From contig JAFXIF010000006.1 of assembly GCA_017533325.1 (NCBI GenBank), positions 1 through 39,929 on the forward strand: DNA of 39,929 bases. Direction: 5' to 3'. Under the pieces are notes generated by a model. The model was given only the letters and a program-made list of their open reading frames with translations, was not told the DNA's origin and ran no database searches. The stretch is from Alphaproteobacteria bacterium. GTDB taxonomy: Bacteria; Pseudomonadota; Alphaproteobacteria; CAAHEQ01; UBA3637. The translations under genes were made by a program, and so were the position numbers. Positions 26,517 through 32,219 of the stretch are shown piece after piece. Position 1 is the first letter of the stretch; the number at the start of each line of letters is the position of its first letter.

Positions 26517-28319
26517 ATGGAAAAATATCCAACAAAAAACCAAAAAGTTATCGATTGGGTAAATTCAATTGCCGCTATTACACAACCGGATTCTATTTAT
26601 TGGTGTGACGGAACGGAAAAAGAAAATAAAAATATTTGTGCAACTCTTGTTAAAAATAAAACATTTATACCGCTTAATCCTAAAAAACGACCGAACAGTT
26701 TTTTAGCTCGTTCAAATCCTAAAGATGTTGCGCGTGTTGAAAAAAGAACTTTTATTTGCTCAGAAAAAGAAATTGATGCCGGACCAACAAATAATTGGGC
26801 AAGTCCTAAAAAAATGAAGAAGAAATTAGGCAAGCTTATGAAAGGTTGTATGCGCGGAAGAACCATGTATGTTATTCCTTTTTCAATGGGTCCGCTTGGC
26901 TCTGATATCGCTAAAATCGGCGTTGAAATCACGGATTCACCATACGTTGTTGCCAATATGCGCATCATGACAAGAATGGGCAAAAAAGTGTGGACTGTTT
27001 TAAAAGATGGCGATTTTGTTAAATGTTTCCATTCGGTTGGCTCTCCGTTAAAAGAGGACGAACAAGATGTGGCATGGCCATGTAATCCTGAAGAAACATA
27101 TATCACTCATTTTCCAGAAACAAACGAAATTATCTCTTATGGGTCAGGTTATGGCGGTAATGCTTTGTTGGGCAAAAAATGCTTGGCATTAAGAATTGCT
27201 TCTTCCATGGCAAAAAGGGACGGTTGGCTTGCGGAACACATGCTTATCGTTGGTCTTAAAAATAAAAAATTAGGGCTTTCTTCTTATGTGGCCGCGGCTT
27301 TTCCAAGCGCTTGCGGAAAAACAAATATGGCCATGCTTATTCCGCCAAAGTCAATGTCAGATTGGACTGTTTCAACGGTTGGAGATGATATTGCTTGGAT
27401 TAAACCGGATAAAAACGGCATTTTAAGAGCGATTAATCCCGAAGCTGGATTTTTCGGTGTTGCTCCGGGAACGTCTGCAAAAACGAATAAAAACGCGATT
27501 GAATCTTGCAGAGCAAACACGATTTTCACTAACGTTGCCTTAACAGATGATGGAGATGTTTGGTGGGAAGGTTTAACGGATAAAGCACCGGCACACCTTA
27601 TTGATTGGCAAGGGAATGATTGGACGCCAGATTGTGGCAGACCGGCAGCTCATCCGAATTCAAGATTTACCGCGCCGGCCAGTCAATGTCCTTCAATTGA
27701 TGAAGCTTGGGAAGATCCGAAAGGTGTTGCCATTGATGCATTTATTTTTGGTGGACGTTTGGCAACGAATACACCGCTTGTTTATCAATCATATAATTGG
27801 CAACATGGTGTTTATCTTGCCAGCACAATGGGTTCTGAAAAAACGGCAGCTTCTGAAGGAAAAACGGGGGAAATTCGCCGCGATCCAATGGCTATGTTAC
27901 CGTTTTGCGGATATAATATGGGTGATTATTGGGCTCATTGGTTGTCTATGGGGCAAAAGGTTTCTAAAAAACCGCTTATTTTCCGCGTGAATTGGTTTAG
28001 AAAAGATGCACAAGGCAAATTTATTTGGCCGGGATTTGGCGAAAATATGCGCGTTCTTGAATGGATTTTAAAACGCGTAAACGGTTCTGCATCAGCCACT
28101 GAAACGGTTTTGGGCTATTCACCAACATACAATGATTTAAACTGGAAAGGTCTTTCCATGACTGAAGAAAGATTTGAAGAATTAATGTCTGTGGATAAAA
28201 AAATGGCCTTATCTGATGTTCAAGCACAACAAGATTATTTTAAAATCTTTAAAAAGCAAAAACGTTTGCCTCAAGAATTTGAAGCAGAATTAATTTTGCT
28301 TGAAGGCAGATTGAAATAA
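26517..28319 (+). CDS. pckG: Phosphoenolpyruvate carboxykinase (GTP)
   Basis: A 600-aa enzyme of the GTP-dependent family. The P-loop FPSACGKTN (about 261-269) contains the reactive Cys typical of the GTP form; [19 protein letters not shown] and [18 protein letters not shown] match the nucleotide and substrate regions. It converts oxaloacetate and GTP to phosphoenolpyruvate, CO2 and GDP. Most alphaproteobacteria use the unrelated ATP form, so this is less usual. It has its own promoter and terminator and appears to be a single-gene unit. Confidence 0.97.
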
Positions 28320-28335
28320 TCAAAAATAACATATT

Positions 28336-28368
28336 AAAAAAGCTCGATTTTTATCGGGCTTTTTTTAT
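28336..28368 (+). terminator. Intrinsic terminator of pckG
   Basis: AGCTCGAT (28341-28348) pairs with ATCGGGCT (28353-28360), one wobble, loop TTTT, followed by seven T. Almost the same sequence ends the next gene block at 32327-32356. Confidence 0.9.
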
Positions 28369-28375
28369 TTTTCCT

Positions 28376-28535
28376 AAGTCGGAAATTTAATGGTCGTTTA
28401 TTTTTCTATATCATAAAGTATATAGTATTGCAACAGTTTAATTGAAAATAAAATAATAATCAGCACTTTAATTTTTTTAACAAAAAGCATAAAAGTCGGC
28501 AAATCTAACGACCCTTTTTTTTGCCGATTTTTTAT
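28376..28535 (+). promoter_or_regulatory. Leader of the glycerophosphate cassette with possible antiterminator
   Basis: AAGTCGG occurs at 28376-28382 and again at 28493-28499, where it forms the left arm of the terminator at 28491-28533. The upstream copy (TCGG, AAA at 28379-28385) can instead pair with the terminator's right arm (28520-28527, one bulge), and GGTCGTT (28392-28398) can pair with AACGACC in the terminator loop (28507-28513). The two pairings nest, so an alternative fold would exclude the terminator. It also holds the inverted repeat CTATAT-N8-ATATAG (28406-28425). No clear promoter was found: TTGCAA (28428) is followed only by a poor -10, and a transcript starting there would lack the upstream elements, so readthrough from pckG may be needed. 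Confidence 0.4.
28491..28533 (+). terminator. Intrinsic terminator in the leader of the 28551 gene
   Basis: TCGGCAAA (28496-28503) and TTTGCCGA (28520-28527) form a perfect 8-bp stem, extended by AAAAG/TTTTT pairing outside it, with a 16-nt loop and a six-T run. It ends only 17 bp before the start codon of the next gene on the same strand, so it looks like an attenuator rather than the end of a gene. Confidence 0.8.
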
Positions 28536-28550
28536 GATGAGTAAAATAAA

Positions 28551-29159
28551 ATGACGATAGCATTAATTGTTAAAAACAATAAATATATTAATGAGTTGCA
28601 GCAAAATACTTTGCTCTTATCGTTTTTTAATACTCAGCAAGAAAAGGATATCTTTTTTGTTGAAAATGAAAATATATTTTCAGAACCAAGCATTTTTGAA
28701 ACATCAAAAAGAATAGTTGTGGCGTCATTAATGTGTTTGGCGGACAGTATGAGCGAGATAAAAACCGTGTTATTGGATTTATATAAGCGGAAAATCAGTT
28801 TGGTTAGCATAAAGGAAAATTTGTTTTTATTAACCCAAAAAGAAATGAAAAATTTTATATTGGGGTTTGATTTGGCATTGCAGTTAAAAGTTGATTATTC
28901 TTCTTTTAAAATAAAAAGTTCGTTGCAAAAAAAGAAAGAGCAAGGCATTAAAATCGGCCGCCTTATCGGAGCAAAAAATAAGAAAAAATCAAAATGCGCT
29001 GAGCACCATCAATATATTTTTCAAGCTTTAAAAAATGGTGAAAAAATAACAACTATTGCAAATACAGTTGGGGTAACTGAAAGAACTCTTTTTAATTATA
29101 AAAAAGAACATTTTCCTACATTGTGTTTGCATAAATCAAAGGAACATGGAAATGCGTAG
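28551..29159 (+). CDS. Serine-recombinase-like protein lacking catalytic residues, probable DNA-binding regulator
   Basis: A 202-aa protein that aligns end to end with small serine recombinases of the Mpi/resolvase type. The central part (RIVVASLMCLADSMSEIKTV, 54-73) matches the region around the conserved SRLGR motif; the C-terminal part has the linker GIKIGRLIGAKNKK (132-145, like GRPKGSKN) and a helix-turn-helix (about 165-186, ITTIANTVGVTERTLFNY). The catalytic residues are gone. Where active enzymes have Y-x-R-x-S, this has LIVKN, so the nucleophile Ser is Asn9 and the Arg is Val7. The two Arg of SRLGR are Cys62 and Asp65. It cannot be a normal recombinase; a regulator for the cassette it heads is the best guess. 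It overlaps the GT4 start. Confidence 0.75.
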   Translation: MTIALIVKNNKYINELQQNTLLLSFFNTQQEKDIFFVENENIFSEPSIFETSKRIVVASLMCLADSMSEIKTVLLDLYKRKISLVSIKENLFLLTQKEMKNFILGFDLALQLKVDYSSFKIKSSLQKKKEQGIKIGRLIGAKNKKKSKCAEHHQYIFQALKNGEKITTIANTVGVTERTLFNYKKEHFPTLCLHKSKEHGNA

Positions 29160-30558
29160 AAAAATATTATTCTATAATTGGACCCCGTTTGATAATCCGC
29201 AAAATGCGGGAGGTGGGATTACCATTTATATAAAAAATATAATAGGAAATATTAATTGTTCAAAGTATGATGTTTACTTTTTAAGTGCTGGTAAAAAATA
29301 TAATCCCTTTTGGGGTAAGCCATATATTAGAAAAAGTCAAAATATATTTGGTGACAAATGTAAATCATTTGAAATAATAAATGCAGAAAGTTTTGCCCCA
29401 ATGGGATTGGCTTCTTGGTGTCTTAATCGATATGCTAAATCACAAAAAGAAGATTTATTAATTGAAAAGTTTAATAAAAAATATGGACCATTTGATGTTA
29501 TCCATATTGCAAATATTGCATCTGTTTTTCCAAGTATTATAAAATTAAAAGAAAAAAATCCAAATACAAAATTGATTTTTGACATTCATAATTACAATTT
29601 TTGCTGTTTAAATAGTTTATTATTTAGGCGTGATACTAATAAATTGTGTTCTGATTTTTGCAACGGTGAATCATGTTTATATTGTTTTAAAAATGATATT
29701 CATACGAAAAAGATATTTTTGGAAAGAGTAAAAAGTTATTTAGAATCTACTAAAATTTTAAAACCATTTACAAAATTATTATTGAAAATGAAATTTTTTT
29801 ATCAATACAAATATAAAAAATATTATTTAGATAAGAAAAACAATAAATCAATAGGACTTGACTTTGTAAATTATCGAAATACAAATATCTGGTTGATAAA
29901 TCAATATGCAGATTATATTCTTGCAGTTTCTAAAAGAGTGGCCGATATAGGAATTAAATATGGGTTAAATAAAGACAAGATGAGAATTTCATATATTGGG
30001 ACATCGTTTTCAGAAAATACCCAAAAAAGAATTGTAACAGACACTTCAAAATTTACAATCGCATATTTTGGGTATGCCCGAATTTCTAAAGGTTATTTTT
30101 TCTTGATTAAAGAATTATCAAAAATACCTCCAGAAATTGCAAAAGATATAAATCTAATTTTTTGTGCAAAAAACAGTAAACCATCAGATATAAAACGTCT
30201 TTCAAAATTTAATAGTATTCAGATTTATAATGGATATACACATAAGGATATGCTTTCAAGACTTACCAATGTTGATCTAGGCGTTGTTCCTGTTTTATGG
30301 GAAGATAATTTACCACAAGTTGCTATTGAATTAACTTCTATGGGCGTTCCAATTTTATGTTCTAATTTGGGCGGAGCTTCTGAATTATCGAACTCAAAAT
30401 ACTTTATTTTTAATCCGGACTTGGAGAACGATTTGGTGGAAAAAATTATTAATATTTTAAATGATAGATCACTATTAGAGGAATATTGGAAAGAATTTAA
30501 TGGATTAACTTCTATTCAATCAAATCTTGATTATTTATATAAATTATATGAGGGTTAG
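29152..30558 (+). CDS. Glycosyltransferase, GT4-like
   Basis: A 468-aa GT-B protein. The N-terminal NAGGGITIYIKNI segment is the acceptor-side glycine-rich loop; the C-terminal domain has IAYFGYARISKGYFFLIKEL and a donor-binding TSMGVPILCSNLGGASEL, typical of GT4. I chose the ATG at 29152 because AAAGGA (29138-29143) is 8 nt from it but only 2 nt from the ATG at 29146. A Cys cluster around CSDFCNGESCLYC (about 163-175) is unusual and may bind metal. Codon use is more AT-rich than in the flanking genes. Donor and acceptor unknown. Confidence 0.85.
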   Translation: MRRKILFYNWTPFDNPQNAGGGITIYIKNIIGNINCSKYDVYFLSAGKKYNPFWGKPYIRKSQNIFGDKCKSFEIINAESFAPMGLASWCLNRYAKSQKEDLLIEKFNKKYGPFDVIHIANIASVFPSIIKLKEKNPNTKLIFDIHNYNFCCLNSLLFRRDTNKLCSDFCNGESCLYCFKNDIHTKKIFLERVKSYLESTKILKPFTKLLLKMKFFYQYKYKKYYLDKKNNKSIGLDFVNYRNTNIWLINQYADYILAVSKRVADIGIKYGLNKDKMRISYIGTSFSENTQKRIVTDTSKFTIAYFGYARISKGYFFLIKELSKIPPEIAKDINLIFCAKNSKPSDIKRLSKFNSIQIYNGYTHKDMLSRLTNVDLGVVPVLWEDNLPQVAIELTSMGVPILCSNLGGASELSNSKYFIFNPDLENDLVEKIINILNDRSLLEEYWKEFNGLTSIQSNLDYLYKLYEG

Positions 30559-30562
30559 TGGG

Positions 30563-31822
30563 ATGTTTTTAAAAGAAAAGTTATTCTCTATTAAAATATC
30601 AAATGACAAGGAAAGTATTATTTTTCACTTACTGGGAATAAGGTTAAAATGTAAAATTTTTACAAAAAAAAATATGTTTTTTTTTGATACGTTTTTGGTA
30701 AAAAATAAAAAGAAAATAATATTTGCAAGTATGCCTGATTATTCAGATAATTCTAAAGAATTTTATGAATATCTGAAAAAAAATTATTCAAATGAGTATG
30801 ATTTGGTTTGGTTGATTCTAAACCCTAAAGCAAAAATAACTATGCCAAATGCCTATTATTTTTCTACTTTTTTAGGTAAATACCATTTATTAACCTCAAA
30901 ATATATAGTGTATACAGGACTATATTTGGCTGATTTTATTAATTTTAAAAAGCATGTTGTTTTGGAAGTTTGGCACGGAATGCCATTGAAAACTTTGGGT
31001 TTTAATGAAAAAAATATACCTTCTAATGTTTTTAATCAGTATCAAAAAATAGGAAAAAGTAGTTATTTTTTTGTTTCTTCGGATATCTTTAAGTTATCTA
31101 TGATTTCTTCCTTTTTGATTCCAGATAATAATATTTATATTACAGGACAAGCACGGACGGATTGCATAATTGATCAACGAAACAAAAAGGAAGTTGCAAA
31201 TTTTATTGAAAAGAAAAGTTTTAAAAAAGTTATTTTGTATACTCCAACCTACAAGGAGGCTCAACGGAATAATCGAAGAGACATCAATAAAGAATTTGAA
31301 AACATTTTTTATTTTGATGATTATAACGAAGAAAAATTTTATCAATTTTTAGAAAAAGAAAAGATTCTCTTCATTGTTAAACCTCACCCATTTGATGAGC
31401 GTTTTTATAAACAGGAATTAGATCAAAAAAAATTAATACATCCAAATATTAAAATCATATTTAATGTGGATATGACTAAAAATAATTTTTATTTTTATGA
31501 GTTTTTTCAACATGCGGATTTAATGATAACGGATTTTTCTTCTATTGCAATTGATTTTTTAATTACAAAAAAACCGGTTATTTTTTTAGATAATTTAAGT
31601 GATGAATATTCCCAAAATCGGGGTTTTATTTTAGATGATAATTATCAAATTCTTATGCCAGGAGAAAAAGTTAAATCATTTAATAAATTATTACATTCTA
31701 TTCAAGATGCTTTAACAGTCGATTCTTGGAAAGAAGAACGCGAAAAAACTTTGCCACTTCTTCATAAATATCAGGATAACAAATCTTGTGAAAGAATTTA
31801 TAATATAATTAAGGAGTTATAA
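30563..31822 (+). CDS. CDP-glycerol glycerophosphotransferase family (TagB/TagF-like)
   Basis: A 419-aa protein of the Glyphos_transf family. Motifs in order: VVLEVWHGMPLKTLGF, ITGQARTD, VKPHPFDE and ITDFSSIAIDFL, the last binding the donor phosphate in TagF. Such enzymes move glycerol-phosphate from CDP-glycerol to a glycan or to a growing polymer. The start at 30563 is chosen because GAGGG (30550-30554) is 8 nt before it; ATGs at 30527 and 30548 lie inside the upstream gene and have no ribosome-binding site. The next gene, tagD, makes CDP-glycerol, giving a donor-transferase pair. Single transfer versus polymerisation cannot be told from sequence. Confidence 0.88.
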   Translation: MFLKEKLFSIKISNDKESIIFHLLGIRLKCKIFTKKNMFFFDTFLVKNKKKIIFASMPDYSDNSKEFYEYLKKNYSNEYDLVWLILNPKAKITMPNAYYFSTFLGKYHLLTSKYIVYTGLYLADFINFKKHVVLEVWHGMPLKTLGFNEKNIPSNVFNQYQKIGKSSYFFVSSDIFKLSMISSFLIPDNNIYITGQARTDCIIDQRNKKEVANFIEKKSFKKVILYTPTYKEAQRNNRRDINKEFENIFYFDDYNEEKFYQFLEKEKILFIVKPHPFDERFYKQELDQKKLIHPNIKIIFNVDMTKNNFYFYEFFQHADLMITDFSSIAIDFLITKKPVIFLDNLSDEYSQNRGFILDDNYQILMPGEKVKSFNKLLHSIQDALTVDSWKEEREKTLPLLHKYQDNKSCERIYNIIKEL

Positions 31823-31823
31823 A

Positions 31824-32219
31824 ATGAAACGAGTAATTACATACGGCACATTTGATGTGTTGCATTATGGTCATATTAATCTTTTAAAAAGAGCAAGAGC
31901 TTTGGGGGATTATTTAATCGTTGTTCTTTCAAGCGATGAGTTTAACAAGGTAAAAAACAAAACATCATATTACACATACGAACAACGAAAAATTATTTTG
32001 GAAGCTTGTAGATATGTTGATTTAGTTATTCCTGAATATGATTGGGAACAAAAAGTTGATGATGTTCAAAAATATCAAGCAGATATCTTTGTTATGGGGG
32101 ATGATTGGAAAGGGCAATTTGATTTTTTAAAAGAATATTGCGAAGTTGTTTATTTGCCAAGAACTCCTGATGTTTGTTCAACTAAAACAAAAAAGTATTT
32201 AAAGCAAAAAGATTCATAA
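31824..32219 (+). CDS. tagD: Glycerol-3-phosphate cytidylyltransferase
   Basis: A 131-aa enzyme with the nucleotidyltransferase motif GTFDVLHYGH (8-17, HxGH) and, near the end, RTPDVCSTKTK in place of the usual RTxGISTTxIK. It makes CDP-glycerol from CTP and glycerol-3-phosphate, the donor for the transferase encoded just upstream. It starts one base after that gene, with AAGGAG before the ATG. Ends the cassette. Confidence 0.94.
   Translation: MKRVITYGTFDVLHYGHINLLKRARALGDYLIVVLSSDEFNKVKNKTSYYTYEQRKIILEACRYVDLVIPEYDWEQKVDDVQKYQADIFVMGDDWKGQFDFLKEYCEVVYLPRTPDVCSTKTKKYLKQKDS

Follow-up and report, generated by a model that had tools for sequence, protein, structure and literature searches.

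Why should an operon for surface glycans begin with the gene of a DNA recombinase that lacks the catalytic residues of its active relatives? This question is raised by the gene at 28551-29159 of the window, by which we mean the whole analysed stretch of 39,929 nucleotides. The window belongs to a 1.44-Mb draft genome (G000), the nearest named relatives of which are alphaproteobacterial MAGs from the ruminant gut. The locus comprises the following features.

26517-28319, upstream of the leader: PEP-carboxykinase-like gene, named from its sequence
28336..28365, + strand: intrinsic-terminator-like hairpin from a pattern scan (0.5 expected), ending the 26517-28319 gene and insulating the leader
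28374..28413, + strand: left recombination site GTCGGAAATTTAATGG/TCGTTTATTTTTC, crossover centre 28393/28394, called by comparison with other sites
28394..28511, no strand: putative invertible segment, 118 bp between the crossover centres, delimited by comparison with G003
28405..28433, - strand: promoter-like TTGCAA-N17-TATAGA with TG before the -10, read directly; it points away from the operon (OFF here)
28492..28531, - strand: right recombination site, palindromic (hairpin at about 28491-28532), crossover centre 28511/28512
28551..29159, + strand: dead small serine recombinase P0001, first operon gene
29146..30558, + strand: family-4-type glycosyltransferase (Glycos_transf_1, E 1.5e-12), overlapping the recombinase gene by 14 nt
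30527..31822, + strand: CDP-glycerol:poly(glycerophosphate) glycerophosphotransferase-like protein (E 1.6e-56)
31824..32219, + strand: glycerol-3-phosphate cytidylyltransferase, TagD-like (TIGR01518, E 5.5e-57, above cut-off), the last clear gene of the operon

P0001 is encoded by an intact frame of 202 codons and is classified as a small serine recombinase. When aligned with live relatives, it carries V, N, C, D, V and K at the six catalytic positions R8, S10, R68, R71, R119 and R125, respectively; in its own numbering V7 and N9 replace the Arg and Ser of the live enzymes, and the catalytic Ser/Arg set of active Mpi and small serine invertases is absent. Its closest named family is the Mpi invertase family NF009949 (E 2e-14), although the score of 53.8 bits is below the curated cut-off of 272; the Pfam Resolvase match is likewise under its cut-off (E 9e-4) and the HTH_7 match is similarly weak. 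The GR linker and the C-terminal HTH are retained, and the AlphaFold model (AF2, mean pLDDT 86.6) shows a resolvase fold with helix E followed by the HTH. Among PDB entries this model is closest to the Sin-DNA regulatory complex 2r0q (E 2.7e-8), with further matches to Tn3 and gamma-delta resolvases. Judged by its sequence, P0001 is a catalytically dead relative of Mpi-type invertases. Searches for a phage or plasmid origin returned weak matches to live invertases alone.

The same losses recur in an entire family. Among live relatives, R8, S10, R68, R71 and R125 are kept in all 61 sequences, and R119 is replaced by K in four and is otherwise R. The 47 aligned dead copies retain at most two of these six residues, a comparison that is partly circular since the dead class was assigned from two motifs; all 47 have also lost about ten residues of the catalytic loop, and this common deletion is free of the circularity. 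Two other HTH-containing ORFs were excluded from the dead set. In a tree built from 43 dead and 53 live sequences, a single branch divides dead from live (support 99/97, present in all 200 bootstrap trees), with several long branches on the dead side.

Altogether we read 48 dead loci, which are spread over 35 genomes and three alphaproteobacterial families; 40 regions were fetched from the top of the hit list, and the sample is thus not unbiased. The window genome has a single dead copy, and its genus contributes three more in two species (G002 and G003), all heading glycan operons. A class-wide search revealed dead heads in two further families, exemplified by G384, where the dead gene overlaps rmlA by 4 nt, and by G115, where both dead copies lie behind a live invertase; a search of 153 genomes from the order of G384 gave many more. 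In a phylum sample of 398 genomes, live enzymes only were found apart from the window's own copy. A single-sequence protein scan of a collection of genome contigs for relatives of P0001 gave no match, and an alignment-based scan of this collection recovered only the three known relatives.

Of the 48 dead copies, 41 open a glycan operon and two close one (L237 and L240); two lie at contig ends, two have neighbours that cannot be named and one (G010) lacks glycan genes. The first and second genes downstream of dead heads are mainly glycosyltransferases, nucleotidyltransferases, RgpF, Rml enzymes and NeuB (Pfam). By comparison, a glycan gene comes next downstream in none of 65 distinct live recombinases (Fisher below 1e-20). 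Two or three dead copies at separate glycan operons were found in each of G002, G452, G453, G460, G488 and G495. P0001 carries both traits of this family, namely the residue losses with the catalytic-loop deletion and the first place in a glycan operon. An earlier note made from the window sequence had described Asn9, Val7, the missing arginines of the SRLGR motif, the kept GR-type linker and HTH, an intact frame coupled to the next gene and a place at the front of a surface-glycan operon. All of this stands; the remaining catalytic arginines are lost too, the coupling is seen in the 14-nt overlap, and homologues elsewhere prove consistent in both the lost residues and the first position, which were the checks that the note had proposed.

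Two further observations concern individual loci. The G010 copy (L043:7247-7885) belongs to the same branch of the tree and lies behind an aldolase-like gene, with no clear inverted repeat. At three loci (L205:4309-5319, L223:3881-4879 and L225:639-1637) the gene of a 332-336 aa protein composed of many helix-turn-helix repeats separates the dead recombinase from the first glycosyltransferase.

In the leader of the window operon, two 40-bp sites face each other; both have the core GGTCGTT, and their crossover centres are 118 bp apart. Site patterns derived from other contigs, with the window excluded, match the window at these two places only (0 expected): one pattern at 28378-28398 of the + strand with two mismatches, and GGTCGTTAGATTTGCCG at 28497-28513 of the - strand with none (0 expected for each). 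The inverted repeat of this leader by itself reaches p 0.16 in a single-locus test, because its sites are short and imperfect; the call accordingly derives from comparison with other sites and not from the significance of the repeat. In G003 the corresponding segment is also 118 bp long, and its ungapped identity to the window is 46/118 in the forward direction and 72/118 as the reverse complement. All four loci of the genus (the window, G003, G002:C15 and G002:C5, the last on a contig that ends at the left site) carry TTGnAA-N17-TATARG at the same end of the segment. In G003 and G002:C15 this promoter faces the operon, and in the window and G002:C5 it has the opposite direction; the two orientations are thus seen only from one species or locus to another. 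The CTATAT-N8-ATATAG repeat overlaps the -10 and the spacer of the OFF-oriented promoter.

Like Bacteroides loci, the window locus has a promoter enclosed by facing recombination sites ahead of its first gene, and its operon would be phase-variable through inversion of the 118-bp segment in living cells. The earlier note had placed the operon behind an attenuator-like leader, a reading we had to abandon: the supposed attenuator hairpin is the palindromic right recombination site, with a partner in opposite orientation at 28374-28413, and forms half of an invertible-promoter switch. Its comparison with Mpi was apt in seeing a dead relative of Mpi-type invertases at the head of a glycan operon, and missed the Mpi-type switch at the locus itself.

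Related sites are spread over the genome. A covariance model of the site identified about 20 further copies in G000, many of them paired face to face at a distance of exactly 277 bp. These enclose a strong promoter ahead of genes for large proteins that carry an autotransporter beta-domain. About twelve autotransporter genes, with an N-terminus M(T/S)NYSRTTLRELKKRYLN or similar, stand behind facing GGTCGTT cassettes, mostly of this 277-bp spacing; three of the cassette promoters point towards the gene and the rest away. These cassettes are located as follows.

G000 contigs C12, C16, C35, C42, C45, C51, C52, C63, C65 and C73 (L107-L119): autotransporter cassettes

Many G000 contigs end at such cassettes. 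In G002, the arms of the autotransporter sites and of the glycan sites are both different, as expected if one enzyme per species serves all its sites. The site core of G384 is identical to that of the window. A significant facing inverted repeat is present in 15 of 42 leaders of dead genes from the other families, compared to 3 of 49 control leaders (Fisher p 0.0005). Site centres can differ between loci of one genome, and such differences would presumably prevent recombination between loci. At L233 (G495:C17), one live invertase has dead heads on both sides, leading two divergent glycan operons with the site centres CTCC and CTTC.

The enzyme that would flip the window segment (28394-28511) is most likely the live Mpi-like invertase encoded on another contig of the window genome (G000:C24:37152-37757). 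Its orthologues in G003 (85% identity) and G002 (70%) place this type in the same three genus genomes that have dead heads and GGTCGTT sites. Full-length live relatives number one in G002 (the C24 orthologue) and three in G000, both counts being from draft genomes. Elsewhere, some 19 dead genes have a live invertase at a distance of 169-272 bp, arranged either in tandem or divergently. The leaders of L217, L219, L220, L229, L231, L232 and L233 contain a conserved palindrome, AAATAGTTA..TAACTATTT or a variant, upstream of the divergent live invertase, and this 5'-leader palindrome is possibly an operator.

We propose that the dead proteins descend from DNA invertases and have become regulators. 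The 118-bp promoter segment would be flipped between ON and OFF by a live Mpi-type invertase, most likely that of C24. With the promoter ON, the dead recombinase would be the first protein made, and it would be made in that state only, because its gene sits behind the flipping promoter. A protein that cannot cut DNA and still has the helix for dimerisation, together with the linker and HTH for DNA binding, would be a natural brake. It might occupy recombination DNA or the operator DNA of the invertase, repressing the invertase gene in the latter case, or it might draw the live invertase into inactive hetero-oligomers. Either route would lower the flipping rate once the locus is ON and could perhaps bias other loci. 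We consider such feedback of the dead protein on the promoter switch somewhat better than an even bet. The chances are about even for the broader proposition that the dead family is a dedicated regulator class for phase-variable surface glycans in gut alphaproteobacteria, in which an operon reports its ON state by a dead copy of the switch enzyme that controls the switch or its rivals. Dead recombinases, often found directly behind a promoter that appears to switch by inversion, are probably a new kind of surface-variation regulator.

Simple competition for sites is unsupported as a general rule, since L219 and L223 of one genome have near-identical dead HTHs beside different site types; a direct test for the dead HTH following the local site type gave no support. 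Shared specificity with the C24-type invertases was also considered and not taken as proven, the best C-terminal match being to these enzymes for some dead copies and not for all.

The layout has a known counterpart. In Bacteroides capsule loci, invertible promoters are flipped by Mpi, and the first genes encode UpxY and UpxZ, which mediate and inhibit transcription antitermination (PMC12632263). In both systems glycan operons follow invertible promoters and a regulatory gene comes first, and a single global invertase may act in the present one too; here, in contrast, that gene encodes a dead serine recombinase, the hosts are alphaproteobacteria and the switch is shared with autotransporters. 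P0001 has no match in Pfam or NCBIfam to the NusG-like domain that is the hallmark of UpxY. With Mpi (NF009949) and the Hin, Gin, Sin and gamma-delta recombinases it shares the fold, dimerisation helix, GR linker and HTH, but it lacks the catalytic residues and about ten loop residues and is encoded first in a glycan operon. The parts of a gut inverton survey consulted here (PMC11892184) give motifs for Bacteroidota and Akkermansia and describe similar short promoter segments that are bounded by inverted repeats and lie close to surface genes; one inverton of Akkermansia is near autotransporter-domain proteins, and in the searches made neither Alphaproteobacteria nor catalytically inactive recombinases came up. 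Serine recombinases recruited for cellular functions, as covered in the consulted portion of PMC8987985, are also taken over by host regulation; those are active in inversion and excision, whereas the proposed regulator here is dead. A limited literature search yielded no earlier report of an inactive invertase or dead recombinase serving as a regulator, nor of a regulon in gut alphaproteobacteria that puts autotransporters and glycans under phase variation. The combination of invertible promoter and first-gene regulator is therefore known, and the protein class in that place appears to be new. A different lineage seems to reach the Bacteroides capsule layout by making the recombinase itself the first-gene protein. 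The locus also exposes this apparent regulon, and the split into dead and live forms, often side by side, provides a clear test bed for how bacteria limit or coordinate phase switching.

The Bacteroides parallel admits an alternative in which the dead protein of an expressed locus acts mainly on other loci, whether of glycans or of autotransporters, and holds them OFF or prevents their flipping, in the manner of UpxZ among capsule loci. The six genomes with multiple dead copies favour it, as do the opposite ON and OFF states of two such loci in G002 and the first-gene position itself, which matches UpxY/UpxZ (PMC12632263). The single dead copy of the window genome would however restrict such cross-talk there to the autotransporter loci, and we regard this account as unlikely. 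We are equally doubtful that the dead protein is a plain transcription factor that activates or represses its own operon independently of inversion. Conservation in the linker and HTH is at the level of live enzymes (2.75/2.40 bits in dead and 2.60/2.38 bits in live sequences), and some dead loci have neither a nearby live invertase nor a clear inverted repeat. On the other hand, the excess of long facing repeats in dead-gene leaders and the frequency of adjoining live invertases tie the family to the switch.

Attenuation or antitermination at the RNA level is very improbable: a hairpin can form from the right site and has a T-run behind it in the window, but this hairpin is the palindromic site that also occurs, with no T-run behind it, at the autotransporter loci. 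The distance from the site centre to the start codon is only about 40 nt, and no RNA-binding domain was found in P0001 by the Pfam scan, the structure model or the PDB comparison. Even less credible is a recombinase in decay that simply travels with the operon, for which one relative with an in-frame stop (G488:C10) might speak, against the open frames of all other aligned dead copies, their low dN/dS, the common loop deletion and the old family split.

The earlier note had taken the frame to be kept, and purifying selection bears this out. For close dead pairs dN/dS is mostly 0.07-0.19, reaching 0.27 in a few more distant pairs, and is similar to that of live enzymes. Conservation falls in the catalytic domain (1.8-2.3 bits in dead copies versus 2.9-3.6 in live ones) and not in the linker or HTH, which is how a kept DNA-binding function would look; the dead protein may act as a local DNA-binding regulator.

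Two observations lie outside the glycan loci. The sister species G004 (e.g. L131, L132, L134, L135 and L137) has tens of site pairs with the core ACGTCCC, 129 bp apart, upstream of pilin-like genes that start M(K/E)ILN(S/A)FF..GRSMVEMLGVL, apparently a parallel invertible-promoter regulon. The window also contains a CRISPR-like array of direct repeats at 102-560, and a Cas9-like ORF is present elsewhere in this genome, on a different contig (L108:4695-6000).
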